Shown here piece after piece: positions 7,698 to 28,907 of a stretch of DNA of 64,000 bases. This stretch comes from Chelativorans sp. YIM 93263 (GTDB lineage Bacteria; Pseudomonadota; Alphaproteobacteria; Rhizobiales; Rhizobiaceae). The notes below the pieces were generated by a model. It did not search any database. It saw only the letters and a list, made by a program, of their open reading frames with translations, and was not told the DNA's origin. The position numbers and the translations under genes were made by a program. The first letter of the stretch is position 1. Each line of letters starts with the position of its first letter. The DNA lies in NCBI RefSeq assembly GCF_028767125.1, contig NZ_JAKCWP010000001.1, forward strand, positions 682,001 to 746,000, given 5' to 3'.

Positions 7698-7752
7698 AGG
7701 ACAAGGATTCCCAATTGCCGCTTCGACCTCTTGTGATCTGAGCATTTTCCTG

Positions 7753-9604: not shown

Positions 9605-10006
9605 TCAGCCGCCGCATGGGTTGGTCCAGGCGATCGGCAACCCAATCCATAGTGTCGCGACAAAGAATAGGCCCGCACTGAGCATCGCACCTTCGGCAAG
9701 GAAGCGCGATTGGACTGCGCCGTCGTCTCCTTCCGCATTCTCCCGGCGGATACGCCGGAAGGCGAGTCCAGACCAGATTCCGACGACCAGAATGGCCGCT
9801 GCAGTGAGCACCGTCAGAGCGGTGAGCAGAAGCCGGAGCGTCCCGAAGCCGAGATAACCCGCCTCGATGGCCGCACAGCCCGCACCCTGCACCGAATAGA
9901 TCGCGACGAAGAAACCTGCCCATACCACGGGTGGGAGGAGAAAACCCTTGGCGTCGGCCGGGAAACCGTATTTGGGTGCGGGAGCGAACTTTTCGGGCTT
10001 GGCCAT
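9605..10006 (-). CDS. Small membrane protein of the cytochrome c oxidase operon
   Basis: This 133-residue protein has three or four predicted membrane helices, near residues 28-50, 55-80 and 105-128. It follows the oxidase subunit I-III gene after 6 bp on the same strand and is surely co-transcribed. It resembles in size and place the fourth gene of coxMNOP-type alternative oxidases, and an accessory or subunit-IV-like role is likely. I cannot match a specific family by sequence. A cysteine in an AGCAA segment and another in TNPCGG at the end are the only visible special residues. Confidence 0.7.
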   Translation of the reverse strand: MAKPEKFAPAPKYGFPADAKGFLLPPVVWAGFFVAIYSVQGAGCAAIEAGYLGFGTLRLLLTALTVLTAAAILVVGIWSGLAFRRIRRENAEGDDGAVQSRFLAEGAMLSAGLFFVATLWIGLPIAWTNPCGG

Positions 10007-10012
10007 CGTGTC

Positions 10013-12544
10013 TCACCCAAAGGCTGTCGGCGATAGATAGATGACGGCGAACGCCACCAGCCCGACCACCGCGGAATAGAGACTGAGCTGCGTGAAGACA
10101 AGTGCGGAGACGTCCTTGTGCGGTACTGCCCCGCCGATAAAAAAGCGCGCAAGTGAGAAGAGCGCCGAGCAAAGCGACAGCAACACATGCAGCGCAAAAT
10201 AACCGCCGATAAAGACCACCAGCGCTCCATAGGCGTGGCTCTTCAGATTGAAGGGTAGCTCGCCCCAGGCCGCGAACAGCGCATAGGCGAGGCCGCCCAG
10301 GACCGGGAGGCTAAGGAAGAGTCCCAGAAGGATACCACGCCGGTTGTGATGGCTGGCTGCCCAATGAGTCAGCCCGACCACTATAAGGGAAAGCACTGTG
10401 AGCGCGAGTACGATGATGGCGGACGTTCCGGTCTCCGGTGCAAAGCCCGGCGGCGGCCACACGGCGGCGGAGGTCCAGAGATAGAAGTAGGCGTAGACGA
10501 GCGACGCGAAGACCGCCCCGTCGACGAAGATGAAGATCAAGCAGCCCAGCCAGTCATGCGCGCCGGTGCTGCCCGAGCCGATCGGAAGGGTGAGCCCGTT
10601 ACCGACATATTTCTCATGCTTCTCGTGCGGTTCCTCCCATAGCCAGAACAGGAGGATGAGGAGGAAGGTGGCCGCACCGGCCGCTGCGATCCAGTATTTC
10701 GAGATGAGAAAGCCAATGAAGGTCGCGGCGGTGGCGAGTGCCGCCAGGAGCGGCACGAAGCTGGGGCTCGGCAAGCGCAGCACATATTCCGGTGCAGCAC
10801 CTACGACCGAGGTGGCAAGCACCTCGCGCTTGCCTTCGGTGGCGGTCGGCAGATATTCGCGTGCGCTCTCGATGCGGTCGTGCAGGCCCGGCTGGTCCCA
10901 CAGCGGATTATAGCTGGTAACACGGGGAATGCTGCGGATGTTGTAGGGCGGGATGGGCGATGGGTTTGCCCATTCCAGCCCTCCCGCTTCCCAGGGATTA
11001 TCACCCGCCGGCTCACCCCAACGCACATGCCAGAACACGTTGACGACAAACACGACCGCGCCGGCAGCGAACATGTAAGCGCCCAGAGTCGAAGTTAGGT
11101 TCAGCCAATCCCAGCCGAGACCAGCGGGATAGGTGTAGACACGCCGGGGCATACCTAGGAGCCCGGTCAGATGCATCGGGAAAAAGGAGACGTTGAAACC
11201 GATGAAGAGCATCCAAAAGCTGATCTTGCCCATCGTTTCCGAGAGCATTCGTCCCGTCGCGCGTGGGAGGTAAAAGAAGAGCGCAGCGAAGAGTGGGAAG
11301 ACCATGCCGCCGATCAGCACGTAGTGGAAATGAGCGACCACGAAATAGGTGTCGTGCACCTGCCAGTCGAAAGGTACCATGGCGACCATGACGCCGGTCA
11401 GTCCGCCTATGACGAAGATGATGATGAAGCCAATAACGAAAAGAAGTGGCGTGCGCAGGAGCGGGCGGCCTTCCCACAGAGTGGCGATCCAGGCGAAGAC
11501 CTGGATTCCGCTCGGGATCGAGACGGCAAGGCTTGCCCCGGCGAAGAAGGAGAGCGCCAAGCGCGGAATGCCGGTAGCGTACATGTGGTGGACCCAAAGG
11601 CCGAAGCTCAGGAAGGCGGTGCCCACCACGGCCAGAACGAGCAGGCTGTAACCCACCAGCGGTCCGCGCGACAGTGTCGGCAGCATGGCGCTGACGAGCC
11701 CCGCCGCCGGCAGGAAGATGATGTAGACCTCGGGATGCCCGAAAATCCAGAAAAGATGCTGCCATAGGAGGGGATCGCCGCCGCGTGTCACGTCGTAAAA
11801 CGGAATGCCGAAGGCGCGTTCGGCCTCAAGCAGGATGCTGGCGAGGATCAGCGGCGGGAAACCGAAGATGATCATGAAGGAGACCGCCAGCATGTACCAC
11901 GCGAAGATCGCCATGCGGTGGAGCGACATGCCGGGAGCGCGCATCCTCAGGATGGTGACGATCAGTTCCAGCGCGCCCGTAATGCTGGCGATTTCGACGA
12001 AGGTGACGCCGAGCAGCCAGAAATCCTGATTGATGCCGGGGGAGAACTCCTTGGTCGTGAGCGGCACATACATGAACCAGCCGCCATCAGGCGCGGAGCC
12101 GATCAGGAAACTCGAATAGAGCAGCAGCCCGCCGAACAGGAAGCACCAGTAGCCGAAAGCGCTGAGGCGTGGAAAGCAGAGGTCCCGCGTGCCGATCATC
12201 GACGGTATGAGATAGACGCCGAAGGCCTCCATCATGGGCACGGCGAAGAGAAACATCATCGTCGTGCCGTGCATGGTGAAGAACTGGTTGTAGACCTCGG
12301 TCGAAAGCAGGTCGTTCTCCGGCACGATGAGTTGCGTGCGTATGAGGAGCGCGAGCACACCGCCGGCGAGGAAGAACATGAAGGTGGTGAGAATAAAGCG
12401 CCGGCCGATCACCGAGTTGTTGACGGCGCTGATGCGGCGCCATCCGCTCGGCTTCTCCCAGACACGCTCGAACTGCGCCTCCGCCTCGGGGCCCACGACC
12501 TCGGCGGCCAGGGGGGAGCGGAATTTTTCCGCCGCGTCATTCAT
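10013..12544 (-). CDS. aa3-type cytochrome c oxidase, fused subunits I and III
   Basis: This 843-residue fusion has residues about 25-560 as subunit I. It shows GHPEVYIIFLPAAG with the Cu-B histidine and the cross-linked Tyr, VHHMYATG, and HDTYFVVAHFHYVL with the haem a3 and haem a ligands. Residues about 640-843 form a subunit III domain with five to seven helices (HDWLGCLIFIFVDGAVF, FIGGYFALHVLLSL). I-III fusions are known in several bacteria. It would be the terminal oxidase reducing oxygen in the inner membrane, taking electrons from the fused cytochrome c of subunit II. The operon places it downstream of a PQQ dehydrogenase, suggesting a dedicated chain. Its start overlaps the subunit II stop by 4 bp. 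Confidence 0.93.
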   Translation of the reverse strand: MNDAAEKFRSPLAAEVVGPEAEAQFERVWEKPSGWRRISAVNNSVIGRRFILTTFMFFLAGGVLALLIRTQLIVPENDLLSTEVYNQFFTMHGTTMMFLFAVPMMEAFGVYLIPSMIGTRDLCFPRLSAFGYWCFLFGGLLLYSSFLIGSAPDGGWFMYVPLTTKEFSPGINQDFWLLGVTFVEIASITGALELIVTILRMRAPGMSLHRMAIFAWYMLAVSFMIIFGFPPLILASILLEAERAFGIPFYDVTRGGDPLLWQHLFWIFGHPEVYIIFLPAAGLVSAMLPTLSRGPLVGYSLLVLAVVGTAFLSFGLWVHHMYATGIPRLALSFFAGASLAVSIPSGIQVFAWIATLWEGRPLLRTPLLFVIGFIIIFVIGGLTGVMVAMVPFDWQVHDTYFVVAHFHYVLIGGMVFPLFAALFFYLPRATGRMLSETMGKISFWMLFIGFNVSFFPMHLTGLLGMPRRVYTYPAGLGWDWLNLTSTLGAYMFAAGAVVFVVNVFWHVRWGEPAGDNPWEAGGLEWANPSPIPPYNIRSIPRVTSYNPLWDQPGLHDRIESAREYLPTATEGKREVLATSVVGAAPEYVLRLPSPSFVPLLAALATAATFIGFLISKYWIAAAGAATFLLILLFWLWEEPHEKHEKYVGNGLTLPIGSGSTGAHDWLGCLIFIFVDGAVFASLVYAYFYLWTSAAVWPPPGFAPETGTSAIIVLALTVLSLIVVGLTHWAASHHNRRGILLGLFLSLPVLGGLAYALFAAWGELPFNLKSHAYGALVVFIGGYFALHVLLSLCSALFSLARFFIGGAVPHKDVSALVFTQLSLYSAVVGLVAFAVIYLSPTAFG

Positions 12545-13557
12545 TGGAGGCTCTCCAGATAGGCGGCGATGGAGAGCCGCGTTTCACGGTCGAGATGCGG
12601 AAATTCCGGCATCTTGTTGCCGGGCTTCATGTCGTCGTTGCGGGCGATCCAGGCGGCGACGTTCTCCCGGGTATTGTCGAAGGTGCCTGCTGCGATGGTG
12701 AGCCGGCTGCCCAGATGAGTAAGATCCGGACCTTCCGTTCCCCAGGCGCCTCCCCCGCGCACCGTGTGGCAGACGACGCAGCCGCTCGCGTCGAAGGCGT
12801 CCTTTCCGGCATGGACGGCTCGCGTTTCGGGCGGCGTGGCCGGCGAGCGCTGCCGCTCGGCCCATGCCTCGAATTTCTCCTGTGGTACAGCCACGGCATA
12901 GAAGGCCATTTGTGCATGGGCCAATCCGCAGAACTCCGCACATTGGCCGCGAAAGACGCCCGGCTCCTCCGCCTCGATGACGAGACGGTTGGTTTGGCTG
13001 GGGATGAGGTCGAGCTTACCGGCCAGCCGCGGCAGCCAGAGACTGTGGATGACGTCCGAAGAGGTCATGAGCAGCTCAACCGGCTGGTTTACCGGCAGAT
13101 ATAGCTCGTTGGCCGTGGTGAAGTTGCGGCTGGGATCGCGATGGTCGACATATTCAATATCCCACCACCACTGATGCGCCGTCACGCGGATGCTGATTGC
13201 GTTTTCCGGCAGATCGGCACTCACACCGGAGCCTGCCCTCAGGCCGAAAACCAGGAGGATGGAGAGCGCAACGATGGGAAGCACAACGCCGCCCGCGACG
13301 ATCATCTTCACCGGTGCAATGCGCCAGCGTCTTTCCGGCGCTTGAAAGCTGGCATAGAGCAGCAAGCCGAGAACGAGTAGAAAGATCGCGGTGCCTGCCC
13401 AGAACATTGCCCACCACAGATAGGCCACCTCGCGCGCGGCGGCGCCGCTCGGCTGCAGCGCCGATTGCGGGCCCGCGCAGCCTGTGGATAGAAAAACGGC
13501 TGCGGCGACAAGACCGGCGAAATACCGGGCAGCGAATCCCAATGCTGGCGAGATCAT
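12541..13557 (-). CDS. Cytochrome c oxidase subunit II with fused cytochrome c domain (CoxM-like lipoprotein)
   Basis: The protein has 338 residues from ATG 13557, chosen over a GTG 39 bp upstream because it gives a clean lipoprotein signal with lipobox LSTGC and a GAGGT ribosome site. Two membrane helices follow (about residues 50-75 and 90-112). A CuA cupredoxin domain has the ligand set QCAEFCGLAHAQM. A C-terminal cytochrome c domain contains CVVCH and the distal Met in KPGNKMPEFP. It docks the electron donor and passes electrons to subunit I. A fused haem domain is typical of CoxM-type alternative oxidases. Confidence 0.9.
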   Translation of the reverse strand: MISPALGFAARYFAGLVAAAVFLSTGCAGPQSALQPSGAAAREVAYLWWAMFWAGTAIFLLVLGLLLYASFQAPERRWRIAPVKMIVAGGVVLPIVALSILLVFGLRAGSGVSADLPENAISIRVTAHQWWWDIEYVDHRDPSRNFTTANELYLPVNQPVELLMTSSDVIHSLWLPRLAGKLDLIPSQTNRLVIEAEEPGVFRGQCAEFCGLAHAQMAFYAVAVPQEKFEAWAERQRSPATPPETRAVHAGKDAFDASGCVVCHTVRGGGAWGTEGPDLTHLGSRLTIAAGTFDNTRENVAAWIARNDDMKPGNKMPEFPHLDRETRLSIAAYLESLQ

Positions 13558-13617
13558 CGGCGCCGGTACCTCATCGTCTTCCCGGAGGTCGATCACCGGC
13601 AGTTTGCCGGGGGGCCA

Positions 13618-14448: not shown

Positions 14449-14476
14449 TACCTGCTCCTTGATTGTGCCTCCGCTT

Positions 14477-15295
14477 TCAGCCGTCCACCAAAGGCACGCC
14501 GTATTCCTCGAGCACAGCGCGGACGTCATCCTGCCGGCGCTGCAGGAAATCGTTCAATTCCTCCCTCAGCGCCTGGTCGTCCTTGCCCACGCCCATTGCA
14601 ATCGAGAAGTCGAAGCGGAGAGATGAGGCGTCCTCAGTGTCAGTGATCGGCACCGCCCTCATGGTGACCGGCGCTCGCGTGGCGAAATAACCCCCAAGCG
14701 GCCCCCAGACCGCGGCCACGTCGAGCTTGCCCGATGCCACCGCGTCTATGATGCGCGCCGGCGGGTTCGGCTCGCGATAGTCGCCGTAGATCATATAGCC
14801 GGAAACATTGTCGACGATCCCCTGGTTGCCCAGAGCATGGGCGGGCGGGGTGTTGGCGCCGTCGTCGCCGATCAGGTGCACGCCGATCTTCAGCTCTTTC
14901 AGGCGCGGATCGCTGATGGAGTGGAGATCAAGGCCACTCTCTTCGCGATAGACGTAGACATAGGTCGAGCGGTAATATGGCTTGGTCGTCTCCACCAGTT
15001 CGTAACCCGCCGGCACGCCCATGATGACGTCGCAATCACCGGCATTGAGCGTGTTGCGGACGAAGCCGCGCCGCTGCGCCCACCAGGTGTAGGAGAGTTC
15101 GGCACCGAAATCCTCGGCGATCAGCTCAGCTATCCTGTTCTCAAATCCCTCGCCCTTTTCATTAGAGAACGGCAGGTTGTTAGGATCGGAGCACACGCGC
15201 AACTCGCGCGTGTCGGCTGCCGCACCGTGAGTAAGAACGGCGCCTAGTGTGGCAATGGACCCGGCGAAAAGCCACTTTCGGTATCCACCCGTCAT
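14477..15295 (-). CDS. XoxJ/MxaJ-like periplasmic protein linked to quinoprotein dehydrogenase
   Basis: This 272-residue protein has a Sec signal peptide and an extracellular solute-binding (SBP_bac_3-like) fold: RELRVCSDPNNLPFSNEKGEG at the mature start, ELSYTWWAQRRGFVRNTL, and GDCDVIMGVPAGYE. These features mark the MxaJ/XoxJ group always found beside methanol-dehydrogenase-type quinoproteins. Current structural work suggests that such proteins help activate or load the dehydrogenase rather than import a solute. It overlaps the dehydrogenase stop by 4 bp. The acidic periplasmic neighbours and the oxidase genes downstream indicate one transcription unit. Confidence 0.88.
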   Translation of the reverse strand: MTGGYRKWLFAGSIATLGAVLTHGAAADTRELRVCSDPNNLPFSNEKGEGFENRIAELIAEDFGAELSYTWWAQRRGFVRNTLNAGDCDVIMGVPAGYELVETTKPYYRSTYVYVYREESGLDLHSISDPRLKELKIGVHLIGDDGANTPPAHALGNQGIVDNVSGYMIYGDYREPNPPARIIDAVASGKLDVAAVWGPLGGYFATRAPVTMRAVPITDTEDASSLRFDFSIAMGVGKDDQALREELNDFLQRRQDDVRAVLEEYGVPLVDG

Positions 15296-17364
15296 TGCCC
15301 TTCCTCCTCATCGAGTAGAGGTTCAACAGGGGCAGGTGCTGGAGGTTCAGGTTCCGTTGGCGCTCCGGTCTGAGCATCTTCCTCCGGCTCTGCGCCTGGT
15401 TGGATACCCGAATCCGGCTCGACCTGCGGGGGCGGTGCTTCCGTCCCGATCTCCTCTTGCGGCTCGGCAGGTGCCGCAGCTTCGGTTCCAGGCTCGGTAT
15501 CGGCTGGTGGAGCTTCTTGTGAGTTGATCGTATCCGCACGCTCCTCGGGCAGGGCGAAGACGTAGAGCGTGCCGCCAGGGCCGGTGTGCTCCGGGAGATC
15601 CTGCATCGCGCCGACGAAACCCAGCGCGCCGAAGGGCACATTGGTGTCGAGATCGCCGGCCACCACCGCGCCTGCCCATCCGCCGACGCCGGCCAGCACG
15701 GCGACATACTGCCTGCCGTCCGATCCCTGATAGGTAATCGGCTGGCCGATGATGCCCGAATCCACCCGGAACTGCCACAAAAGCTCGCCCGAGCGTGCGT
15801 CGACCGCCTTGAACCAGCGGTCCATGGTTCCGTAGAAGGCGACGTCTCCGGCCGTTACCACGGTTCCGCTCCAGACCGGAAAATTCTCCTCGATTGCCCA
15901 GACCTTCTCGGCGTTGACGGGATCCCAGGCCATGTATTCACCGCGATAGCCGCCGGGGCCGGCATACATCTCCACCTCTGCGCCGACGAAGGGCGTGCCG
16001 GCGATGTAGTTGGTCTCAACCACCTTCATGTCCATGCACAGATGCTGGTGCGGTACGTAGACGAGGCCCGTCTGGGGAGAATAGGCGGAGGGCTGCCAGT
16101 CCTTCGCACCTGGGGCGGCGGGACAGATATCGCGCGTGATCTCGCCCTCGCGCGGCTCCTTCTCCGGGACATGGATCGGCCGGCCTGTCTCCAAATCGAT
16201 GCCACGGGTGACGGTCACATGCTCGTATTCCTCGGCCGAAAGCACCTTGCCGGTGGTCCGGTCCATCACATACATGTGGCCGTTGCGCTCCGGGCGTACG
16301 AGCACCTGGCGCATCTCGCCGTCGATCTCCAGGTCCATCAGGATGTTCTCGTTGACCCCGTCATAGTCGAACAGGTCGTGCGGGCCCCATTGAAAGGCCC
16401 AGCGCGCCATGCCCGTATCCGGATTGCGGGCGAAGATAGAGGCGGTCCACTTGTTGTCGCCCAGCCGCTGATTGTGGTTCCACGGCCCTGGATTGGCGGT
16501 GCCGTAGTAGATGAGGTCCAGCTCAGGGTCGTAAGAAATCCAGCCCCAAACGGTGCCGCCGCCGATCTCCCATCGTCCCGGCGGCCATGTAGTCACGCCG
16601 AGATCGGGCTCGGCATCCTGAGGGTAGGGCGGCTGGAAGTCCTCACCGATGAGCACTTCCTCGTCCGGCCCGGTGGAATAGGCGCGCCAGGCGATCTCGC
16701 CCGTTTCCACTTCGAGCGCGGTCAGCCAGCCGCGCACGCCCAGCTCGCCACCGCTGTTGCCGACCAGAACCTTATCTTTCACCACCAGCGGCGCCATGGT
16801 CATGGTCTCTCCGCGGTTGATGTCGCCAAGTTTGGTCTTCCAGATTTCTTCGCCGGTCTCCGCGTCCACAGCCACCGCGTGGTTGTCTAGGGTGTTGAAG
16901 AAGATCCTTCCTTCGAGATACGCGGCGCCCCGGTTCACCACATCGCAGCAGGCGACACCCTGCGCCGCGCGATCCGGCTCCGGTTCGTAGGACCACTTCA
17001 ACGAACCGTCGGTGATGTCGAGCGCATAGAGAATGTTGGGCCACGGCGTGACGATGTACATTGTGTCGCCGACGACGAGCGGTGCAGCCTCGTGCCCACG
17101 CACCAGGCCGGTGGAAAAGGTCCACGCCACATCCAAGTCCTGCACGTTCTCGGCATTGATCTGGTCGAGGCCGCTGAAGCGCGTCGAAGCGTAGTTCTTC
17201 GCCGGCATGACCCACTGCGTATCATCCTCAGAAAGCTCGACCAGCGTTTCATTCGCCTGGGCGCCTGAACAGAAGGTGCAGAAGAATGCTGCGCTGGCTG
17301 TCAATGCAAAGCGGCGTAGTCCTCCATGAGCAATGATCCCCGCGACCGGAATGGCGATGTTCAT
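15292..17364 (-). CDS. PQQ-dependent alcohol dehydrogenase, lanthanide type (XoxF/PedH-like), with C-terminal tail
   Basis: The protein has 690 residues from ATG 17364 (ribosome site AGGGGAGGG). It has a signal peptide and an eight-bladed quinoprotein propeller. Visible are the adjacent-cysteine disulfide (GVACCDVVNRG, about residues 139-140) above PQQ and the catalytic loop HDLFDYDGVNE. In that loop Asp333 is the expected base and Asp335 is the extra Asp that marks lanthanide-dependent enzymes; calcium enzymes have Ala there. The XoxJ-like gene favours methanol or another short alcohol, but the ABC/beta-propeller neighbours recall ethanol/phenylethanol loci, so the substrate is open. After the normal family end (TLYVFALP) there are about 88 extra Pro/Glu/Ala-rich residues. 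Confidence 0.9.
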   Translation of the reverse strand: MNIAIPVAGIIAHGGLRRFALTASAAFFCTFCSGAQANETLVELSEDDTQWVMPAKNYASTRFSGLDQINAENVQDLDVAWTFSTGLVRGHEAAPLVVGDTMYIVTPWPNILYALDITDGSLKWSYEPEPDRAAQGVACCDVVNRGAAYLEGRIFFNTLDNHAVAVDAETGEEIWKTKLGDINRGETMTMAPLVVKDKVLVGNSGGELGVRGWLTALEVETGEIAWRAYSTGPDEEVLIGEDFQPPYPQDAEPDLGVTTWPPGRWEIGGGTVWGWISYDPELDLIYYGTANPGPWNHNQRLGDNKWTASIFARNPDTGMARWAFQWGPHDLFDYDGVNENILMDLEIDGEMRQVLVRPERNGHMYVMDRTTGKVLSAEEYEHVTVTRGIDLETGRPIHVPEKEPREGEITRDICPAAPGAKDWQPSAYSPQTGLVYVPHQHLCMDMKVVETNYIAGTPFVGAEVEMYAGPGGYRGEYMAWDPVNAEKVWAIEENFPVWSGTVVTAGDVAFYGTMDRWFKAVDARSGELLWQFRVDSGIIGQPITYQGSDGRQYVAVLAGVGGWAGAVVAGDLDTNVPFGALGFVGAMQDLPEHTGPGGTLYVFALPEERADTINSQEAPPADTEPGTEAAAPAEPQEEIGTEAPPPQVEPDSGIQPGAEPEEDAQTGAPTEPEPPAPAPVEPLLDEEEGQ

Positions 17365-17443
17365 TGTCCCTCCCCTGGTGATGTGGCCGGTCCTGATATG
17401 GCGCCGGCTCATCCGCCGGACGCCCTCGGCCCGACAAGTTGCT

Positions 17444-17479
17444 CATTTGCGGAACAATCATGCTCCGCAAATGTTCCGC
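17444..17479. promoter_or_regulatory. Two interlocked inverted repeats in the divergent dehydrogenase / cytochrome c promoter
   Basis: Arms CATTTGCGGA (17444-17453) and TCCGCAAATG (17464-17473) are a perfect 10-bp repeat around a 10-nt spacer. Arms GCGGAACA (17449-17456) and TGTTCCGC (17472-17479) form a second perfect 8-bp repeat over the same bases. They lie in the 171-bp region between the two divergent arms, so one regulator could control both. The regulator is not in the window. Confidence 0.6.
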
Positions 17480-17535
17480 TTTTAGAACTACGCCATGGAT
17501 GTCGACTCCTGAGCCGCTGAACGAGCGAGGATGAA

Positions 17536-17868
17536 ATGCGCGCAAGAGCGACCGCTATACTGGCTGCCGCAGCGACCTTCATTTCCGGGACTTCCCAAGC
17601 GTTCGCGGGCGGAGACCTCGTGTCGGGGCGCGAGAAGGCACAGCAATGCGTGGCCTGTCATGGCCCCGGGGGAGTGGCCCCCAATCCGACCTTTCCGCAT
17701 CTTGCCGGCCAGAACGCCGCCTACCTCGAGATACAACTCGAATATTTTAAGAATGGGCAGCGGTTTCACCCGGTTATGACCCCGGTAGCCGAGGCGCTGA
17801 CCCCGCAGGATATCGAGGACCTCTCCGCTTATTTCAGCGCAGTCGGCCCACTGGCGGACGCACCTTAG
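17536..17868 (+). CDS. Small periplasmic c-type cytochrome
   Basis: This 110-residue protein has a signal peptide (MRARATAILAAAATFISG, cut near AFA). It carries a single-haem class-I cytochrome domain: haem motif CVACH near residue 40, a PHLAGQ segment, and the distal Met in HPVMTPVAEALT. This is the cytochrome c4/c553-like pattern (AYLEIQLEYFKNGQR). It is the first gene of the right arm, divergent from the PQQ dehydrogenase. A role as an electron acceptor of that enzyme or a shuttle to the oxidase is likely by context. The ABC receptor gene follows after 27 bp. Confidence 0.87.
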   Translation: MRARATAILAAAATFISGTSQAFAGGDLVSGREKAQQCVACHGPGGVAPNPTFPHLAGQNAAYLEIQLEYFKNGQRFHPVMTPVAEALTPQDIEDLSAYFSAVGPLADAP

Positions 17869-17895
17869 AGAGAGATTTAACCAGGGGGACAACAC

Positions 17896-18951
17896 TTGAC
17901 TAATGAATTGCCCAAACGGCCGACGCCTTCGTCCTGCGCTCGCGTTTCCGGGTTGCGGCCGCTGCTGCTGGCAACCTTCATGGCTGTGCTGACTTTCGGG
18001 CGGCCCGCTTTCGCTGCCGACATCCGCGTCGGGATTCTTGAGTACGGCACCGTTGCCTGGGAACTCGACGTCATCGACCACCACGGACTGGCGGAGAAGC
18101 GAGACCTTGATCTCGAAATCGTCCGCTACGGTGGTGAGGGCGCGCTTGACGTGGCACTCAATGCCGGCGCAGTCGACATTGTGGTGAGCGACTGGTTGTG
18201 GGTCTCGCGCCAACGCCATGAGGGTCGGTCCTTCACGCTTGTGCCTTATTCGACCATGGTCGGCTCGCTGATGGTTTCGCCCGATGCTGACGCCGCCACG
18301 CTCGCTGATCTGAAAGGCAAGCAGATCGGCATAGCCGGTGGGGCACTGGACAAGAACTGGCTGCTCATGCGGGCCTATGCACGCAGTGAGGAGGGCGCCG
18401 ACCTCGCCGACATCGCGGAACCGACCTTTGCCGCCCCGCCATTGCTCAATGAACTGATGCTGCGCGGCGATCTGCCAGCCGTCATCAACTACTGGCATTA
18501 CGGCGCACGGCTGGAAGCAGCCGGCATGAAGCGCCTCATCGATGTCGAAGACATTCTGGAAGGCCTCGGCGTGCATGACAGCGTGCCGCTGCTCGGCTGG
18601 GTCTTTGATGAAGACTGGGCGGAGGAGAATAGCAAGAAGGTGCAAGCCTTCCTGGACGCCTCCTACGAGGCAAAAAAGATCCTGGGTGAATCGGAGGAGG
18701 AATGGACGCGCATCAGGCCCTTGGTACAGGCGGAAGACGACGCGACGCTGAAAGCGCTGATGATCAATTATCGCCGGGGCATTCCACGAACCTTCGGAGA
18801 ACGTCAGGTGGAAGCGGCCGAGGAAACCTTCGCGGTGCTTTATCGCGAGGGTGGTGGCGAGTTGACAGGCGGCGCGGAGAACCTGACGCCGGGCACGTTC
18901 TGGTCGGGGTTCCGGCTTCAGGACAGCGCGAGCTCAACGGCGCAGCCCTAA
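17896..18951 (+). CDS. NitT/TauT-type ABC transporter substrate-binding protein
   Basis: This 351-residue protein has an N-terminal extension and signal peptide (LLLATFMAVLTFGRPAFA), then a periplasmic fold of the SsuA/TauA/NMT1 class (DIRVGILEYGTVAWELDVI, GGEGALDVALNAGAVDIVVSDWLWV, LKGKQIGIAGGALDKNWLL). It is the receptor for the permease and ATPase encoded next. The ligand cannot be read from sequence; the operon suggests a compound connected with PQQ-dependent alcohol oxidation, such as a substrate, cofactor or metal carrier. TTG at 17896 is the listed start; downstream Met43 is too late to keep the signal peptide. Confidence 0.8.
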   Translation: MTNELPKRPTPSSCARVSGLRPLLLATFMAVLTFGRPAFAADIRVGILEYGTVAWELDVIDHHGLAEKRDLDLEIVRYGGEGALDVALNAGAVDIVVSDWLWVSRQRHEGRSFTLVPYSTMVGSLMVSPDADAATLADLKGKQIGIAGGALDKNWLLMRAYARSEEGADLADIAEPTFAAPPLLNELMLRGDLPAVINYWHYGARLEAAGMKRLIDVEDILEGLGVHDSVPLLGWVFDEDWAEENSKKVQAFLDASYEAKKILGESEEEWTRIRPLVQAEDDATLKALMINYRRGIPRTFGERQVEAAEETFAVLYREGGGELTGGAENLTPGTFWSGFRLQDSASSTAQP

Positions 18952-19673
18952 GAGCGCTTTGTTTCGTCGCTCTGCTTCTGGCTTGGCAAGCTGCAGCTTT
19001 TTGGGCCGGCGGCCGGGTTTTGCCAGCCCCGGGCACGGTTCTCGTCGCGCTATCGCAGCACTTGACCGAGGGAAACCTGCTTTTCCACCTTGCCGCTACT
19101 CTTGCGCGCGTCCTGGCCGCCTTCGCCGTAGCGATGGTCGTGGGCTCGATCATGGGCATCGCCATGGGGCGCTGGCGCCGCGCCGATTATTCCCTGGATG
19201 GAGCGCTCGTTCTCGGGCTCAACATCCCTGCACTGGTGATCATCATACTGTGCTACGTCTGGTTCGGTCTGACGGAAGCCGCCGCCATCCTTGCCGTCTC
19301 AATCAACAAGATCCCCACCGTCGCCGTGACCATGCGTGAGGGCGCGCGAGCCGTCGACCGGCAGCTCATGGACGTGGCGACAGCCTTTGACCTGCCGCCA
19401 TCGCGCACTCTGCGAAAGGTGTATCTACCCCAACTCTACCCCTACTTCATGGCCGCCGCGCGTAGCGGTCTGGCCCTTACTTGGAAAGTTGTTCTCGTTG
19501 TCGAACTACTCGGCCGCTCAAGCGGCGTCGGCTTCCAGCTCGGCCTTTTCTTCCAGATGTTCGATATCGCCGGCATCCTTGCCTACACGCTCGCCTTCGC
19601 AGCGGTGATCCTGACGCTGGAGGCGGCGGTTCTCCGCCCAGCCGACCGGCGAGTAGCCAGGTGGCGGGCATGA
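18702..19673 (+). CDS. NitT/TauT-type ABC transporter permease (start unclear)
   Basis: The homologous part runs from about 18930 (ALRALCFVALLLAWQAAAFW) to 19673. It is a typical SsuC/TauC permease with six helices and the EAA loop (MDVATAFDLPPSRTLRKVYLPQL). No ATG, GTG or TTG exists in frame between the ATG at 18702 and a TTG at 19020. The ATG at 18702, given here, has a GGAGGAGG site but lies deep inside the receptor gene and would add about 76 residues of shadow-like sequence. The TTG would remove the first helix. A -1 frameshift from the receptor, a rare start codon or a sequence error are alternatives. Its stop overlaps the ATPase start. Confidence 0.75.
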   Translation: MDAHQALGTGGRRRDAESADDQLSPGHSTNLRRTSGGSGRGNLRGALSRGWWRVDRRRGEPDAGHVLVGVPASGQRELNGAALRALCFVALLLAWQAAAFWAGGRVLPAPGTVLVALSQHLTEGNLLFHLAATLARVLAAFAVAMVVGSIMGIAMGRWRRADYSLDGALVLGLNIPALVIIILCYVWFGLTEAAAILAVSINKIPTVAVTMREGARAVDRQLMDVATAFDLPPSRTLRKVYLPQLYPYFMAAARSGLALTWKVVLVVELLGRSSGVGFQLGLFFQMFDIAGILAYTLAFAAVILTLEAAVLRPADRRVARWRA

Positions 19674-20428
19674 CGGCGCTCTCCATCGACATTGCGCGCA
19701 AGGAATACACGCCGAGCGACATAGTGGCGCTCGAGGGGCTGCGCTTCAATGTGGAGAAAGGCTCCTTCGTTTCGCTGGTCGGTCCCTCGGGTGCCGGCAA
19801 ATCGACACTGCTGAAGCTCATTCTCGGCATCGACCGGGCGTTCGATGGCAGCATCCATTTCCTGGACGGAGGCACGCGCATCGGCTGCGTGTTTCAGGAG
19901 CCCCGTCTGATGCCATGGCTGTCCACCCTTGAGAACATCCTGCTGGTGACCGGCGATGGTCCTGGGGAACGCGAGCGCGCCAGAGAACTCATCACCGCGA
20001 CGGGGTTGGCGGGCTTCGAGGATGCCTTTCCGCGCGAGCTCTCCGGCGGCATGCAGCGGCGGGCGGCACTGGCGCGCGCTTTTGCGGTACAGCCGAGCCT
20101 TCTTCTGATGGACGAGCCCTTCGTCTCGCTCGACCGGCCCGCTGCCTCTGCCCTGCGCGAACTTCTGCTCGATCTCTGGCGCGAGACCCGGCCAACCATC
20201 CTCTATGTGACCCACGATCTGCACGAGGCGCTGGCGCTCGCCGACCGTGTCGTCTTCATCCGCAGGCGGCCGGGGCGCGTGGTGCTGGACTTCTCCATCG
20301 ACCTGCCGCGCCCGCGCAGTGTCGACGACGTTGCCATTCATGCACTCCATCAGGAGTTATTGGAAAGCCATCCAGGCCTGCTGCAAGGCATCCTTCGGGA
20401 AGAGAGGGAGGCGATGCCGGATGGATAG
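19670..20428 (+). CDS. NitT/TauT-type ABC transporter ATP-binding protein
   Basis: This 252-residue ATPase starts at ATG 19670, overlapping the permease stop by ATGA. It has Walker A GPSGAGKST near residue 41, a Q-loop in CVFQEPRLMPWL, signature LSGGMQRRAALARA, Walker B LLLMDEPF, and His switch YVTHDLHEAL. The PRLMPW phrase and the C-terminal RPGRVVLDFSIDLPRPR are typical of SsuB/TauB/NrtD ATPases. It drives the importer formed with the two preceding genes. The ORF can be extended upstream, but only across the permease gene in a shadow frame. Confidence 0.9.
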   Translation: MTALSIDIARKEYTPSDIVALEGLRFNVEKGSFVSLVGPSGAGKSTLLKLILGIDRAFDGSIHFLDGGTRIGCVFQEPRLMPWLSTLENILLVTGDGPGERERARELITATGLAGFEDAFPRELSGGMQRRAALARAFAVQPSLLLMDEPFVSLDRPAASALRELLLDLWRETRPTILYVTHDLHEALALADRVVFIRRRPGRVVLDFSIDLPRPRSVDDVAIHALHQELLESHPGLLQGILREEREAMPDG

Positions 20429-21173
20429 CAACCGCCCCCTCCTCGAAGTCACCAGCCTTGCCAAGAGCTACGGCGGCAGGACGGGGCTTGCAGGGATCGA
20501 CCTTGCGGTCGGCGCGGGCGAATTCGTCGTCCTGCTGGGCCCGAACGGCGCCGGCAAGACGACGCTCTTCAACATCCTGTGCGGGCTTCTCCCCCCTGAC
20601 GCCGGCGAGGTGCGGATCGGCGGCGGCCGCCCGGGCGATGCCGGCGCAAGGCGCGCACTTGGCATCGTCTTCCAACAGCCCACCCTCGACCTCGATTTGT
20701 CGGTTCGCGCCAATCTGCGCTTCCACGGCGCACTCTATGGGATGGGCGGTCGCATGCTTGAAAGCCGGATGGAGGAAGAGCTTGCTCGCGCCGGTCTCGT
20801 TGAAGCCGGCCGACAGGTCTGCCGCACACTCTCGGGAGGCAACCGGCGCAAGGTGGAGCTTGCCCGCGCGCTGCTGCACGAGCCTACAGTCCTTCTCATG
20901 GATGAGGCGACTGCGGGGCTGGACCACGCCTCCCGCCGCGCCCTTGTGGAGGATGTGCGCCGGCTCGCCAACCGGCGCGGGGTCGGTGTGCTGTGGGCGA
21001 CGCATTTGGTGGATGAAGCAAGCGAGGCAGACCGCATCGTCGTGCTCCATGAGGGCCGCGTCCTCAGCGACGCCGCACCGGCAGAGTTCACCTTCAGAAC
21101 GGGCAAGCCGACGGTGGATGCTGCCTTTCTGGCGATCACCAAGGCAGGCGCACCACGCGAGTCAACAATATGA
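20421..21173 (+). CDS. ABC transporter ATP-binding protein of the PQQ-alcohol-dehydrogenase-associated system
   Basis: This 250-residue ATPase starts at ATG 20421, 8 bp inside the preceding ATPase gene. Walker A is GPNGAGKTT, the signature LSGGNRRKVELARAL, Walker B VLLMDEAT, with a His switch WATHLVDEA. The order and sequence fit the ATPase that pairs with ABC-2 permeases, and it is distinct from the NitT-type ATPase upstream. Together with the beta-propeller protein, the second binding protein and the ABC-2 permease downstream it forms the set repeatedly found beside PQQ-dependent ethanol/phenylethanol dehydrogenases. The cargo is unknown. Confidence 0.87.
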   Translation: MDSNRPLLEVTSLAKSYGGRTGLAGIDLAVGAGEFVVLLGPNGAGKTTLFNILCGLLPPDAGEVRIGGGRPGDAGARRALGIVFQQPTLDLDLSVRANLRFHGALYGMGGRMLESRMEEELARAGLVEAGRQVCRTLSGGNRRKVELARALLHEPTVLLMDEATAGLDHASRRALVEDVRRLANRRGVGVLWATHLVDEASEADRIVVLHEGRVLSDAAPAEFTFRTGKPTVDAAFLAITKAGAPRESTI

Positions 21174-21187
21174 ATGGAGGACCCCTC

Positions 21188-22168
21188 ATGCGGACGCTTC
21201 GCCGGATTATTCTTTCCCTGTTTCTCCTGACGGTACCGTTTATCGCCGCACAGGCGCAGGAAAGCGGGCGCGTCTTCGTCAGCAGCGAGAAGGATAACGC
21301 AGTTATCGTCTTCGACGCGGGCACATTGGAGAAGACGGCGGAGATACCCACCAGCGAGCGGCCGCGTGCCCTGCAGCTCAGCCCCGACCGGCGCCTGCTT
21401 TATGCAGCTTGCGGCGACGGCGACGCGATCGACGTCATCGACCTCGAGGCAATGGAGGTGATCGACCGCCTCGAGGTGGGGGACGATCCGGAGATGTTCG
21501 ACCTCAGCCCGGACGGCAAACTGATCTACGTCTCCAATGAGGATGACGCGCTTTTGACGGTCTTCGATATTGCCGCCAAGGAAGCGGTGGCCGAGGTAGA
21601 GGTTGGCGAGGAACCCGAAGGCGTTCTTGCCGCCCCCAACGGTTCGGTGGTCTACGTCACCTCCGAGGTGGCGAATATGGTGCATGTAGTCGATGCCGAA
21701 ACCCATGAACTTCTCGCCAACACGCTGGTCGGCAACCGCCCGCGCCGGTTTGCGCTGACGCCGGACGGCAGCGAGCTGTGGGTGACCAACGAGTTGAGCG
21801 GCAGCGTTTCCATCCTCGATACCGGCAGCTACGAAGTGACGGAAGAAATCGCCTTCGAGCCGCAGGGCTTTCGCCGTGAGAACGTGACGCCTGTGGGCAT
21901 CGTCATGACCGAGGACGGCAGCACTGCCTATGTCGGGCTGGGCAGGGCGAACCATGTGGCCGCCGTCGATGTCGCGGCGAAATCCGTGCGCGAGTATGTG
22001 CTGGTCGGCGAGCGCGCGTGGGGTCTGGCACTCAACGGCGACGAGTCCACGCTCTACGTTGCGAACGGGCTCAGCGACGACATGTCGGTGGTCGATACAG
22101 CTTCCCTGAGCGTGGCGAAATCGGTGCCCGTGGCGCGAACGCCGCATAGCGTCGTCGTGGTGGATTGA
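21188..22168 (+). CDS. PQQ-dependent catabolism-associated beta-propeller protein (YVTN repeats)
   Basis: This 326-residue periplasmic protein starts at ATG 21188, which is preceded by GGAGGA at good spacing; the earlier ATG at 21170 lacks this. A signal peptide (LFLLTVPFIAAQAQ) is followed by about seven YVTN-type beta-propeller repeats with recurring phrases such as RLLYAACGDGDAIDVIDL, KLIYVSNEDDALLTVFDI and STLYVANGLSDDMSVVDT. Proteins of this kind accompany the ABC-2-type system beside PQQ-dependent dehydrogenases. The exact function is not known; propellers of this kind often bind partner proteins or small ligands. Confidence 0.88.
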   Translation: MRTLRRIILSLFLLTVPFIAAQAQESGRVFVSSEKDNAVIVFDAGTLEKTAEIPTSERPRALQLSPDRRLLYAACGDGDAIDVIDLEAMEVIDRLEVGDDPEMFDLSPDGKLIYVSNEDDALLTVFDIAAKEAVAEVEVGEEPEGVLAAPNGSVVYVTSEVANMVHVVDAETHELLANTLVGNRPRRFALTPDGSELWVTNELSGSVSILDTGSYEVTEEIAFEPQGFRRENVTPVGIVMTEDGSTAYVGLGRANHVAAVDVAAKSVREYVLVGERAWGLALNGDESTLYVANGLSDDMSVVDTASLSVAKSVPVARTPHSVVVVD

Positions 22169-22169
22169 G

Positions 22170-23339
22170 ATGCGCATCATCGCGGCGATTCTCTTTTTCC
22201 TGCTGGCGGTGGTCCCGGCCGCCGCCGAGACGGTCACCTTTGGCTTCCTCTCGCTGGAAGGCGACCCGCGCTATTCGGAAAGCCGGCTCGATATGCGGCT
22301 TCCGGCACAGCCCTGGGGCAAGCCCGACCAGGGCGCGGAGGTTGCTTTGCGGGAAAGCCGTTTCGTGGGCTCTGCCCTCGGGGTTGAGTTCGATCTGGAA
22401 AGCGTGGTCGTCGCCGAGCCGAAGGAAGCCGCAAGCGCGCTGGACGCGTTTATCGAGCAGGAAATCTCTTTCGTGCTGCTCGATCTGCCGGGCGAGCTCG
22501 TTGCGCAACTCGCCCAGGCCACGGCCGGGCGCGACGTGATGCTCTTCAACATCTCCGCACCGGATGATGCTCTGCGGCAGACCGCCTGCTCGGAAAACCT
22601 TCTCAACATCGGGCCGAGCCGAGCCATGCTGTCGGACGCGCTGGCACAATATCTCGTTCGCCAGGACTGGCGCGACGTGATGGTGCTGAAGGGCGAGGCG
22701 CCGGAGGACGAGGCGGTGTTCGCCGCCTTCGAGCGCTCGGCGAAACGCTACGGGCTGAACATCACCGAGGTGCGCCCCTTCGTTCTGGGCAGCGACCCGC
22801 GCGAACGCCAGCGCAACAACGTGGCGCTTCTCACCTCGGACGCGGAGTACGATGTGCTTTTCATCGCCGAGGCAAGCGGCGAGTTCGCGCGCGAAGTGCC
22901 GTTCCGCACCCAGCATCCGCGTCCGGCGGTCGGTGCAGCGGGGCTGACGCCGAACTTTTGGCATTGGGCGTGGGAGCGGCATGGCGCAGCACAGCTCAAC
23001 AATCGCTTTGAGCGGCAGGCGGAGCGCTTCATGACCGGCTACGATTGGGCCGCCTGGATCGCGACGAAAGCAGTGGTGGAGGCGGTGGTGCGCACCGAAA
23101 CGACAGAGTTCGGCGCCGTCGCCGATTATGTCCGGAGCGAGGAGATCGTGCTCGACGGCTTCAAAGGCTATCCGCTGAATTTTCGTCCTTGGAACAATCA
23201 GCTGCGCCAACCGGTCTTTCTCACCATGCCCAATTGGGTGGTCGACCGGGCGCCTTTCGAAGGTTTCCTGCACGAGACCAACAATCTCGACACGCTCGGC
23301 TTCGACGAGAGGGAGACGCAATGCGCGCTCAGCCGATGA
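22170..23339 (+). CDS. ABC substrate-binding-like protein, PQQ-alcohol-dehydrogenase system
   Basis: This 389-residue protein has a signal peptide (MRIIAAILFFLLAVVPAAA) and a type-I periplasmic binding fold related to branched-chain amino-acid receptors. Visible segments are VTFGFLSLEGDPRY at the mature start, DVMLFNISAPDDALRQTACSENLLNIGPSRAM in the middle, and MTGYDWAAWIATKAVVEAVV. This matches the binding protein that accompanies the ATPase and ABC-2 permease in PQQ-dependent alcohol dehydrogenase loci. It begins one base after the propeller stop and overlaps the permease gene. Combining a receptor with an exporter-type permease is unusual, so it may act as a sensor or chaperone. Confidence 0.87.
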   Translation: MRIIAAILFFLLAVVPAAAETVTFGFLSLEGDPRYSESRLDMRLPAQPWGKPDQGAEVALRESRFVGSALGVEFDLESVVVAEPKEAASALDAFIEQEISFVLLDLPGELVAQLAQATAGRDVMLFNISAPDDALRQTACSENLLNIGPSRAMLSDALAQYLVRQDWRDVMVLKGEAPEDEAVFAAFERSAKRYGLNITEVRPFVLGSDPRERQRNNVALLTSDAEYDVLFIAEASGEFAREVPFRTQHPRPAVGAAGLTPNFWHWAWERHGAAQLNNRFERQAERFMTGYDWAAWIATKAVVEAVVRTETTEFGAVADYVRSEEIVLDGFKGYPLNFRPWNNQLRQPVFLTMPNWVVDRAPFEGFLHETNNLDTLGFDERETQCALSR

Positions 23340-24193
23340 CCGCTGAAGCGATTTCGGGCCGAACCGGCACTCCCTCCGGGTTCGGGGCCGCACACGCGGC
23401 CCGCGCGCTTGGCGCCATCGTGCAGCGCGATCTCTTCCGCTTCGTGCACCAGCGCGGCCGGCTCGTTGCCGCGGTGGTTCGCCCGAGTCTGTGGCTGCTC
23501 GTCTTCGCGCTCGGCTTCCGCAACGTCTTCGGCGTCTCAATCATCCCGCCTTACGAGACCTATGTGGAATACCAGGTTTATGTGGTGCCGGGGCTGCTCG
23601 GCATGGTGCTGCTGTTCAACGGCATGCAGTCTTCGCTCGCCATGGTCTACGATCGCGAGATGGGGTTCATGCGGCTCCTGCTCGCCGCACCGTTGCCGCG
23701 CTGGTATCTGCTCCTGTCCAAACTGGTCTCGGGCACGGTCCTCTCGGTGCTGCAGGCCTTTGGCTTTCTCGCCGTTGCGGCAGCCTTCGGCGTCGACATT
23801 CCCTGGATGGGATGGTTGTGGGCGCTGCCGGCACTGCTCCTTGTCGGCATGATGCTGGGCGCGCTCGGGCTCGCGTTATCAGTCCACATCCGCCAGATCG
23901 AGAACTTCGCCGGCGCGATGAACTTCGTCATCTTCCCGATGTTCTTCATCTCCCCGGCGCTTTATCCGCTTTGGCGCTTCGAGGAAGCCGGCGCGCAGAT
24001 CGTCCATGTGGCCGCCCAGCTCAATCCCTTCACCTATGGCGTCCAGCTGATCCGTTTTACCCTATACGGACAATTCCACACACTCGCCGCTGCAGTCGTG
24101 GGCGGCTGCCTCGTAGCCTTCTTTGCACTGGCGGTCGCCGGCTATCGGTTGCGCAGCCCGCCGGCTGCTCCCCGAAACCCGCAATCCACATGA
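23321..24193 (+). CDS. ABC-2 type transporter permease (PedC-like)
   Basis: This 290-residue membrane protein has six predicted helices after a cytoplasmic N-terminus, with the ABC-2 signatures RPSLWLLVFALGFRN, YVVPGLLGMVLLFNGMQSSLAMVYDREMGFMRLL and FPMFFISPALYPL. ABC-2 permeases normally export polymers, drugs or haem-like compounds. This one belongs with the ATPase at 20421-21173, since the NitT-type ATPase already has a partner. ATG 23321 follows GGGAG; ATG 23336, overlapping the preceding stop, is an alternative. In P. putida-type ped loci the equivalent is required for growth on certain alcohols, but its cargo remains unresolved. Confidence 0.86.
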   Translation: MRAQPMTAEAISGRTGTPSGFGAAHAARALGAIVQRDLFRFVHQRGRLVAAVVRPSLWLLVFALGFRNVFGVSIIPPYETYVEYQVYVVPGLLGMVLLFNGMQSSLAMVYDREMGFMRLLLAAPLPRWYLLLSKLVSGTVLSVLQAFGFLAVAAAFGVDIPWMGWLWALPALLLVGMMLGALGLALSVHIRQIENFAGAMNFVIFPMFFISPALYPLWRFEEAGAQIVHVAAQLNPFTYGVQLIRFTLYGQFHTLAAAVVGGCLVAFFALAVAGYRLRSPPAAPRNPQST

Positions 24194-24213
24194 CCCGGAA
24201 AAGGAGGTCCGTG

Positions 24214-25095
24214 ATGAAATGTGCAGCTTCCGCCGTCACCCTAGCCGCTACATTGGGCGTTGTTGTCCTGCCGGCCGCAGCGCAGGAAGAACCTGCCGAG
24301 CCCCTGGTACCACGCGAGGAAGGTGCGGAGCCGCAGGCGCAAGAGCAGCCGGCACCGCAAGCGCAGGCGGAACAGGCGCCCGATTGCGCCGGCCTCCCCG
24401 ATCATGGACAACTCACCTCTTCGCTGCGCGAAGTGGTGGCTCCAGGCGATCCGTCCGTCAATGGTGGCCTCGGCAATCATATGTGGGCGGTCGTTGTGAA
24501 CCGGGCAGGCGTGGTCTGCGCGGTCGCGCGCTCCGGTGAGAACTTCGGCGACCAGTGGCCGGGCAGCCGCGCCATCGCGCTGTCCAAGGCGCATACGGCC
24601 AACGCTTTCAGCCTGCCGGGTTTTGCGCTTTCCACCGCCAATCTCTACTGGCCTTCACAGCCGGGCAGCGCCCTCTACGGGCTAGAAGCAAGCCATCCCG
24701 CCGCCGGCGCGGTTCAGGAAGGCTCTGCCGAGGATTGGGGCACGGAGGGTGACCCGCTGGTTGGACAGCCCGCCAGCGGAGTGACGGTGTTCGGCGGTGG
24801 ATTGGCCCTCTACACCGGAGAGGACGAGCTTGCTGGCGCCCTCGGGCTCAGCGGCGACGAGGCCTGCACCGACCACGTGATCGCCTGGAAAGTACGCCAC
24901 TCGCTCGATCTGGACCACGTGCCAGACGGCGTGACCGACGCAGGCAACGACAACATCATTCATGATCTCACGGTCGATCCGGCCACCGGCAGGCAAGAGA
25001 GCTCGAGCGGCTACGGTCATCCGACCTGCAGTCCCACGGCTGAAAGAATTTCGGAGAACTTTGGGGAGACCCACCCAACAGGCGGTGCTTCATAG
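24214..25095 (+). CDS. Secreted GlcG/HbpS-family (haem-degrading-like) protein
   Basis: The protein has 293 residues from ATG 24214, directly after AAGGAGG. A signal peptide (TLAATLGVVVLPAAAQ) is followed by a Glu/Pro/Gln-rich segment (about residues 26-60), then a GlcG/HbpS (formerly DUF336) domain: MWAVVVNRAGVVCAVARSG, SRAIALSKAHTANAFS and GVTVFGGGLALY. The family binds haem or cobalamin-like ligands and often sits beside quinohaemoprotein and glycolate genes. It is the last gene of the right arm. Haem capture or repair for the cluster's cytochromes is a guess from the family and place. Confidence 0.83.
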   Translation: MKCAASAVTLAATLGVVVLPAAAQEEPAEPLVPREEGAEPQAQEQPAPQAQAEQAPDCAGLPDHGQLTSSLREVVAPGDPSVNGGLGNHMWAVVVNRAGVVCAVARSGENFGDQWPGSRAIALSKAHTANAFSLPGFALSTANLYWPSQPGSALYGLEASHPAAGAVQEGSAEDWGTEGDPLVGQPASGVTVFGGGLALYTGEDELAGALGLSGDEACTDHVIAWKVRHSLDLDHVPDGVTDAGNDNIIHDLTVDPATGRQESSSGYGHPTCSPTAERISENFGETHPTGGAS

Positions 25096-25655: not shown

Positions 25656-25838
25656 GCAACCGCTATGGTAGTGGGGTAGCGCATCGAAACATTCACTTCA
25701 CCGGTGGTGTTGCCGCGCTCGACAGCTTTCAAAACCTTGGCGGCTTGTGCACCGCAACGCCCCGATCATCACGAGCACCACCCCAATATCCTCAAGGATG
25801 AGCATAGGTGCGCCGAAGGGCTTGAACGCTTGCTGAAC

Positions 25839-28830: not shown

Positions 28831-28907
<77 letters not shown>

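Follow-up and report, generated by a model that had tools for sequence, protein, structure and literature searches.

Gene clusters that pair a pyrroloquinoline quinone (PQQ) dehydrogenase with a dedicated oxidase have been described before: XoxF3 clusters with CoxI/II/III, CtaG, XoxG, and XoxJ are in print (PMC10875860), as is COX operon type a-II with PQQ dehydrogenases (PMC4013037; Degli Esposti 2014). On the cofactor side, deletion of pedA1A2BC in P. putida raised the La3+ requirement ∼100-fold and left growth on oxidized 2-phenylethanol intermediates unaffected (PMC6839425), LutA/E/F transport lanthanide in M. extorquens (PMC7391723), and PqqT binds PQQ with a Kd of 50 nM (PMC12124388, citing Ho and Cotruvo 2019), PDB entry 9B1V being PqqT with PQQ and Gd (PMC12828617). 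Here, we describe a locus at positions 9605 to 25095 of a 64,000-nucleotide stretch of the Chelativorans sp. YIM 93263 genome (the window; contig NZ_JAKCWP010000001.1, positions 682,001 to 746,000). We read it as a horizontally acquired composite methanol-respiration island, in which a XoxF3 dehydrogenase is combined with its own caa3-like oxidase and with lanthanide and PQQ importers, and we put the probability of this reading at roughly 0.68. An earlier reading made from the letters alone (the sequence-only reading) had proposed an undescribed system; since clusters of PQQ dehydrogenase and oxidase genes have already been published (PMC10875860, PMC4013037), the locus is better described as a new composite of known modules.

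Open reading frames were read frame by frame, translations were scanned against NCBIfam and Pfam, and structural relatives were taken from the Protein Data Bank (PDB). For comparison, we used 199 genomes of the host's family, its own included (kinship makes these genomes non-independent), and examined the 10 best or most informative (L004 to L013) of 43 related loci. The frames and scans resolve the locus into two compact divergent operons, at 9605-17412 on the minus strand and 17536-25095 on the plus strand, with genes A to O as follows:

9605..10006, minus: A, small membrane protein of 133 amino acids (aa), a relative of the small hypothetical protein between CoxIII and CtaG in XoxF3 clusters
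10013..12544, minus: B, fusion of cytochrome c oxidase subunits I and III (TIGR02891, 720 bits)
12541..13596, minus: C, oxidase subunit II carrying a CuA domain and, at its C terminus, a cytochrome c (TIGR02866, 167 bits; PF00116, PF00034)
13618 to ∼14449, minus: D, cytochrome c lipoprotein (PF13442; weak MoxG and PedF matches below cutoff)
14477..15295, minus: E, XoxJ-like periplasmic binding protein (TIGR03871, 319 bits against a cutoff of 212)
15292..17412, minus: F, lanthanide PQQ methanol dehydrogenase of the XoxF3 type, its C-terminal tail rich in Pro and Glu (TIGR03075, 670 bits against a cutoff of 480)
17413..17535, no strand: upstream region common to the two divergent operons; its overlapping inverted repeats (17444-17479) are a candidate operator
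17536..17868, plus: G, small exported cytochrome c (PF00034, PF13442)
17896..18951, plus: H, predicted PqqT-like periplasmic PQQ-binding protein (PDB 9b1u/9b1v, E value 3e-61, 210 bits)
18702..19673, plus: I, permease of the NitT/SsuC type, presumably working with H (NCBIfam SsuC-like, 90 bits, below cutoff)
19661..20428, plus: J, ATPase of the NitT type, presumably working with H (NCBIfam SsuB-like, 164 bits, below cutoff)
20421..21173, plus: K, PedB/LutE-like ATPase (TIGR03864, 277 bits, below the cutoff of 302)
21170..22168, plus: L, PedA2-like YVTN beta-propeller (TIGR03866, 346 bits)
22170..23339, plus: M, PedA1/LutA-like periplasmic binding protein (TIGR03863, 430 bits against a cutoff of 414)
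23321..24193, plus (start at 23321 or 23336): N, PedC/LutF-like ABC-2 permease (TIGR03861, 346 bits)
24190..25095, plus: O, GlcG/HbpS-like exported protein (PF03928)

The NCBIfam and Pfam scans recovered every gene class that the sequence-only reading had named, including the XoxJ partner, for which E exceeds the family cutoff. Distances between consecutive genes from F through E, D, C, and B to A are -4, 27, 21, -4, and 6 bases (the value of 27 depends on the start chosen for D at 14449, the frame being open up to 14529). Given this close spacing, the left arm is likely one operon, and the oxidase genes are directly packed within the apparent dehydrogenase operon, as had been claimed. Judged from gene packing, each arm would be a single transcript. 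On the right, the coordinate of I marks a frame open from 18702 rather than a fixed start, and J begins at either 19661 or 19670. Neither arm is a chance neighborhood, since the left set recurs in other organisms and the right set in family relatives.

Dehydrogenase F finds its best PDB relative in the XoxF2 methanol dehydrogenase 4mae (701 bits), followed by 4tqo, 6oc5, and 7o6z (589 to 603 bits), versus 334 to 342 bits for the quinoprotein ethanol dehydrogenases 6zcv and 6zcw. The motif HDLFDYDGVNE retains both the catalytic and the lanthanide aspartates, the latter position being Ala in the aligned Ca-type MxaF reference. In a 34-row tree, F falls in a 13-row clade (support 99/100) together with a gene from the Methylocella tundrae T4 plasmid, and the XoxF1, XoxF2, XoxF5, and MxaF references all lie outside this clade. 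The references comprised one each of XoxF1, XoxF2, MxaF, and XoxF5 plus one annotated XoxF5, XoxF4 not being included, and the partial sequences L051 and L055 were left out. We infer that the T4 plasmid gene is XoxF3 from the content and locus-tag order of the xoxFGJ cluster T4_00353-5 (PMC11102522). The lanthanide-type quinoprotein of the sequence-only reading is thereby borne out by both the aspartate and the XoxF3-clade position. Because the dehydrogenase is XoxF3-like, methanol is its likeliest substrate, a prediction from sequence.

Within the clade, F groups with genes from a gammaproteobacterial metagenome-assembled genome (L004, 81% identity) and Marinobacter salicampi (L006, 79% identity), with support of 99/98; identity to F reaches up to 82% in the tree set. 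In four family relatives (L061 to L064), the XoxF3-class genes cluster elsewhere, next to plasmid genes of Bradyrhizobium and Methylocystis (100/100); the gene of a fifth relative (L007) joins those of Methylocella and Mesorhizobium. F is thus nearer to gammaproteobacterial loci than to the XoxF3 genes of its own family, which is evidence of transfer between classes, in either direction. Together with the position of the locus in a variable segment, described below, this agrees with the horizontal transfer suspected earlier.

Genes B, C, and A together encode a caa3-like oxidase in which the GHPEVY motif, the metal-ligand histidine motifs, CuA, and a cytochrome domain are all present. It had been described as a fused aa3 oxidase; the fusion of subunits I and III stands, and the aa3 label gives way to caa3-like since subunit II bears cytochrome c. 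B (843 aa) matches CtaD over residues 39-542 and aligns with fused I/III proteins, its subunit III half being without a named-family match; used as a query, B retrieves matches in 74 of the 199 family genomes at E values up to 1e-150, unfused ones included. We call B A1-like rather than canonical A1 because Gln replaces the K-channel lysine. Gln likewise occupies this position in all 20 fused COX1-3 family oxidases retrieved (L090 to L109). The lysine is absent from all 14 oxidases compared (B, 12 from other XoxF3 loci, and the second copy in the host): Gln takes its place in 8 and Ala or Ser in 6, and the latter 6 also carry Trp for the Glu of GHPEVY. These HPWVY oxidases with Ala or Ser are unfused subunit I partners of XoxF3 (L047, L005, L050, L061, L062, and L063). 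K-channel variants and losses have been discussed on a mostly archaeal COX1 tree (PMC8239418).

Compared with published XoxF3-oxidase clusters (PMC10875860; plasmid loci of Methylocella, Mesorhizobium, Bradyrhizobium, Methylocystis, and Sinorhizobium), the locus shares a XoxF3-class dehydrogenase, XoxJ, cytochrome c, coxII, coxI, coxIII, and the small membrane protein, as well as a GlcG-like heme-binding gene found in 3 of the 5 plasmid loci. It differs in that subunits I and III are fused here and unfused in 5/5 plasmid loci, in having no CtaG match among the island proteins scanned, and in carrying lanthanide and PQQ importer genes inside the locus. With COX operon type a-II it has in common that a methanol-type PQQ dehydrogenase is accompanied by genes for a heme A oxidase; filing it there was rejected because of the different fusion, COX1-COX3 here as opposed to COX1-COX4 (PMC4013037). 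The fused oxidase also occurs in the host as a second I/III caa3-like operon (contig G000:C25; L052:787-8335), 51% identical to B, which adjoins a GMC-type oxidoreductase and cytochromes and has a small protein 25% identical to A. C carries a cytochrome c, as subunit II of the Thermus caa3 oxidase does. Unlike the Thermus enzyme, B combines an A1-like GHPEVY with Gln for the K-channel lysine, a contrast that presupposes the A1/A2 assignment we take the Thermus oxidase to have. The fusion of subunits I and III is common to both (PDB 2yev, polypeptide I+III).

Small membrane protein A gave no match in Pfam, NCBIfam, or PDB. Aligned with 7 small proteins of other loci, it shows 21 to 38% identity, with M1, P26, C44, F102, A104, and C131 invariant. 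A similarly placed small protein has been likened to vesicle transport proteins (PMC10875860); given its gene position, we regard A as a probable oxidase accessory subunit instead. The A-like proteins (L004, L006, and L047 to L052), with their two invariant cysteines, are common to XoxF3 loci and the GMC-linked oxidase operon. D is the likely electron acceptor of the dehydrogenase, in the presumed role of XoxG.

In the right arm, K, L, M, and N match the PQQ-associated ABC transporter families TIGR03864, TIGR03866, TIGR03863, and TIGR03861, which correspond to PedB, PedA2, PedA1, and PedC. All four PedA1A2BC/Lut families thus occur together, three above cutoff and the ATPase at 277 of 302 bits with TIGR03864 as its best family, and binding protein, propeller (PedA2), ATPase, and ABC-2 permease are all shared with PedA1A2BC of P. 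putida and LutA/E/F of M. extorquens (PMC6839425, PMC7391723). Unlike those sets, this one lies inside a XoxF3-oxidase locus, and no TonB receptor was seen in the locus. By this analysis, K-L-M-N would be a lanthanide importer. The sequence-only reading had taken the ped-like set as pointing to ethanol or phenylethanol. That interpretation was rejected, since published mutants tie the set to lanthanide and not to carbon intermediates, so that it is uninformative on substrate (PMC6839425, PMC7391723).

The preceding genes, H-I-J, had been labeled a NitT-type importer and are better read as a PQQ importer, H being a relative of PqqT. Residues 43-335 of H align with PDB entries 9b1u/9b1v (210 bits, E value 3e-61), the PqqT of M. 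extorquens AM1. Homology is near full length and the contact lysine is kept: K153 of H aligns with PqqT K142, assuming an inferred offset of 27 between chain and full-protein numbering, and is Lys in 12/12 relatives examined. Unlike PqqT of AM1, H is encoded with a permease and an ATPase inside the methanol island of an apparent PQQ non-producer. Import of nitrate, taurine, or sulfonate by H-J was rejected, the PqqT match being far stronger. A different cargo, such as a sulfonate or a lanthanide chelate, with the PqqT match reflecting fold and context only, would fit the weak NCBIfam placement of H with sulfonate-binding proteins (35 bits) and the single contact residue checkable in H; we consider it quite improbable, since the sulfonate-binding structure 2x26 scores 20 bits against H and an F-like PQQ dehydrogenase is also present in 51 of 53 family genomes with H. 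Judged from its sequence relatives, H-I-J probably imports PQQ.

Across the family, H was counted at a minimum of 39% identity (G195, at 26% identity, and weak second matches in G177 were dropped, so that 53 of 54 genomes were used) and M above its cutoff (51 genomes, from 78/199 at an E value of 1e-3). H thus occurs in 53 and M in 51 of the 199 genomes: both in 47, one alone in 10, and neither in 142, with a Fisher p of ∼4e-34 that is overstated because related genomes are not independent. H lies within 20 kb of M in 26/53 loci and within that distance of an F-like PQQ dehydrogenase in 31/53, the host's own included, and the joint H-N set is visible in the gene order of the family loci retrieved. 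In Salipiger abyssi, part of the H-N set stands beside a methanol/ethanol-family PQQ dehydrogenase, with pqqE nearby.

The host itself apparently makes no PQQ. In its genome, listed as 99.99% complete, PqqE was not found by a search that was positive in 55/199 family genomes and matched 0 of 14 named controls. For PqqC, a first search gave no match anywhere, and a second matched 5 of 10 genomes, the host's not among them. Judged from these missing PqqC and PqqE matches, the host would depend on scavenged PQQ.

How the import genes came to lie within the locus is suggested by its nearest relatives. In 3/3 of these (L004, L005, and L006), G and O adjoin beside F, with ∼120 to 330 bases between the matched stretches, and in the window the seven genes H-N stand between them. 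The simplest history is therefore that import genes were inserted into a XoxF3-oxidase locus, and we take insertion to be the probable direction of change. GlcG/HbpS-like proteins such as O recur beside XoxF3 dehydrogenases (L004:2677-3408, L006:8292-8993, L005:4906-5682, L048, and L049).

The 123-base region shared by the two operons carries overlapping inverted repeats at 17444-17479, CATTTGCGGA/TCCGCAAATG and GCGGAACA/TGTTCCGC, which form a candidate operator. The count of 8-bp repeats was reached in 0 of 2,000 shuffles, and any 10-bp repeat in 3 of 2,000. These repeats were not found in L004, L005, or L006, and a promoter-consensus scan gave 0 hits against 3.4 expected from shuffles.

On the composite-island reading, F, with PQQ and a lanthanide as cofactors, would carry out periplasmic oxidation of methanol. 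Electrons would pass to the cytochrome c lipoprotein D, and possibly to the small cytochrome G as well, then to C (its cytochrome domain and CuA), and from there to B and O2, with no need of the bc1 complex. K-L-M-N would take up lanthanide, H-I-J would bind and import the PQQ that the host apparently does not make, and these cofactor-import genes would have been inserted between G (cytS) and O (glcG). The direct observations beneath this scheme are gene content, family matches, packing, tree position, the lack of PqqC and PqqE matches, and the position of the import genes compared with relatives. Its main prediction is that methanol respiration in the host would require external PQQ and lanthanide. 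More tentatively, and at less than even odds, one acquired locus may confer rare-earth methanol respiration on a bacterium without PQQ synthesis by supplying the dehydrogenase, a private, bc1-bypassing oxidase, and both cofactor importers, with PQQ and lanthanide drawn from the surroundings or from neighbors and with an oxidase lineage that, without the K-channel lysine, may conserve energy differently. If so, rare-earth methanol oxidation could spread as an accessory trait to bacteria unable to make PQQ, and the community supply of PQQ and lanthanide would control methanol oxidation. The locus is also a compact system in which to ask why users of quinoproteins import lanthanide and PQQ when the enzyme is periplasmic and whether a XoxF enzyme hands electrons straight to a dedicated oxidase. 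No report of PqqT or a whole Ped importer inside a XoxF3-oxidase locus was found in the portions of open-license literature available.

Several observations weigh against the composite methanol-respiration island. According to PMC10875860, no biochemistry is in print for XoxF3. A search of the host genome for the formaldehyde-activating enzyme Fae gave no match (2 of 14 controls matched) and a glutathione-linked route was not searched for, so that growth on methanol is a prediction. Both the missing Fae and the lack of published XoxF3 biochemistry would also suit a dehydrogenase that mainly oxidizes another short alcohol, ethanol or similar, with the chain serving that substrate, as would the residue beside the catalytic Asp, which is Trp in five PDB references and Phe in F, at a position variable within the XoxF3 clade. 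We nonetheless find this unlikely in view of the score of F against XoxF2 (701 bits for 4mae versus 334 to 342 for 6zcv/6zcw), its XoxF-type tree position, and the presence of a XoxJ partner. No CtaG match was found among the island proteins scanned, a genome-wide CtaG search not having been made; in contrast, an assembly-protein gene is present in 5/5 plasmid XoxF3 loci. Neither of the two TonB receptors found in the host, one of heme type and one siderophore-like, scored above the PqqU cutoff (31 bits against 1,200 for the siderophore-like one). Among the 60 family genomes with an F-like dehydrogenase (E value up to 1e-60), H is found in 11 of the 15 without PqqE versus 40 of the 45 with it; because it accompanies PQQ alcohol dehydrogenases in makers and non-makers alike, H is no marker of scavenging by itself. 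A second PQQ dehydrogenase in the host, of glucose/quinate type (G000:C24; L053:3655-5784; 563 bits against a cutoff of 833), could also use imported PQQ.

The last of the points on this side concerns gene order. In all four informative family relatives with a XoxF3-class gene (G192, G027, G193, and G022), M and H are present in the genome but do not lie within 30 kb of it; a fifth relative (G043) was excluded from this count, its contig being 5,894 bases long, and in G022 there is no oxidase match either within the 19 kb retrieved. A Sulfitobacter contig of 11.5 kb, L010, has relatives of H, I, J, K, L, M, and N beside a distant dehydrogenase, with no oxidase match. The arms are modular. The sequence-only reading had named independent arms in relatives as the finding that would tell against a complete fixed unit, and that part of its proposal is given up; the Marinobacter locus (L006) is a partial counter-example, with M- and L-like genes (2 of the 4 ped-like genes) on the far side of its oxidase genes, after a CtaG-like gene. 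The same separation would be expected if two modules were simply adjacent, a XoxF3-oxidase locus and a general PQQ/lanthanide uptake cluster serving any quinoprotein, without a joint respiratory unit. In other genomes, PQQ dehydrogenases that are XoxF5-like or more distant do stand beside H-N genes, and the host's second PQQ dehydrogenase is on another contig. Such mere adjacency is doubtful when the import genes sit between G and O within the XoxF3 locus, a pair of genes that adjoin in the three nearest relatives, when M- and L-like genes stand beside XoxF3-oxidase genes in Marinobacter, and when one 123-base upstream region is common to both operons.

A variable segment near a tRNA gene holds the locus; the tRNA gene itself is outside the system:

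28831..28907, minus: tRNA-Arg (CCG), to the right of the locus, where the variable segment has its edge

The family sample includes two congeners, G090 and G167, and both are without F, H, and M at the limits used. On the left, the window is conserved up to ∼8742 in some congeners, homology ending at 8711-8746 in 5/5 retrieved, with other sequence after. On the right, six congeners retrieved retain the sequence from ∼32384, preceded by tRNA-Arg(CCG) in 4/6; the tRNA was not found in one, and one contig was too short. In G211 and G167 the two blocks share a contig but are widely separated, and in G215, G204, and G208 they occupy different contigs, so that these congeners offer no clean empty site. 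No exact copy of at least 16 bases of the tRNA-Arg occurs elsewhere in the window, and no integrase turned up in the subset of window proteins that was scanned. A defined, tRNA-borne integrative element was therefore rejected, neither integrase nor att repeats having been found in these scans.

Also within the variable segment, positions 25704-26351 encode a LysR substrate domain without a DNA-binding domain match, possibly a truncated regulator. At 2608-8742, conserved in some congeners, the window encodes a tripartite tricarboxylate transporter (TctC, TctA, and TctB), a 2-hydroxyacid dehydrogenase, an Ldh2-like dehydrogenase (read from sequence), and a PF03601 membrane protein, a gene set that could serve sulfolactate use.

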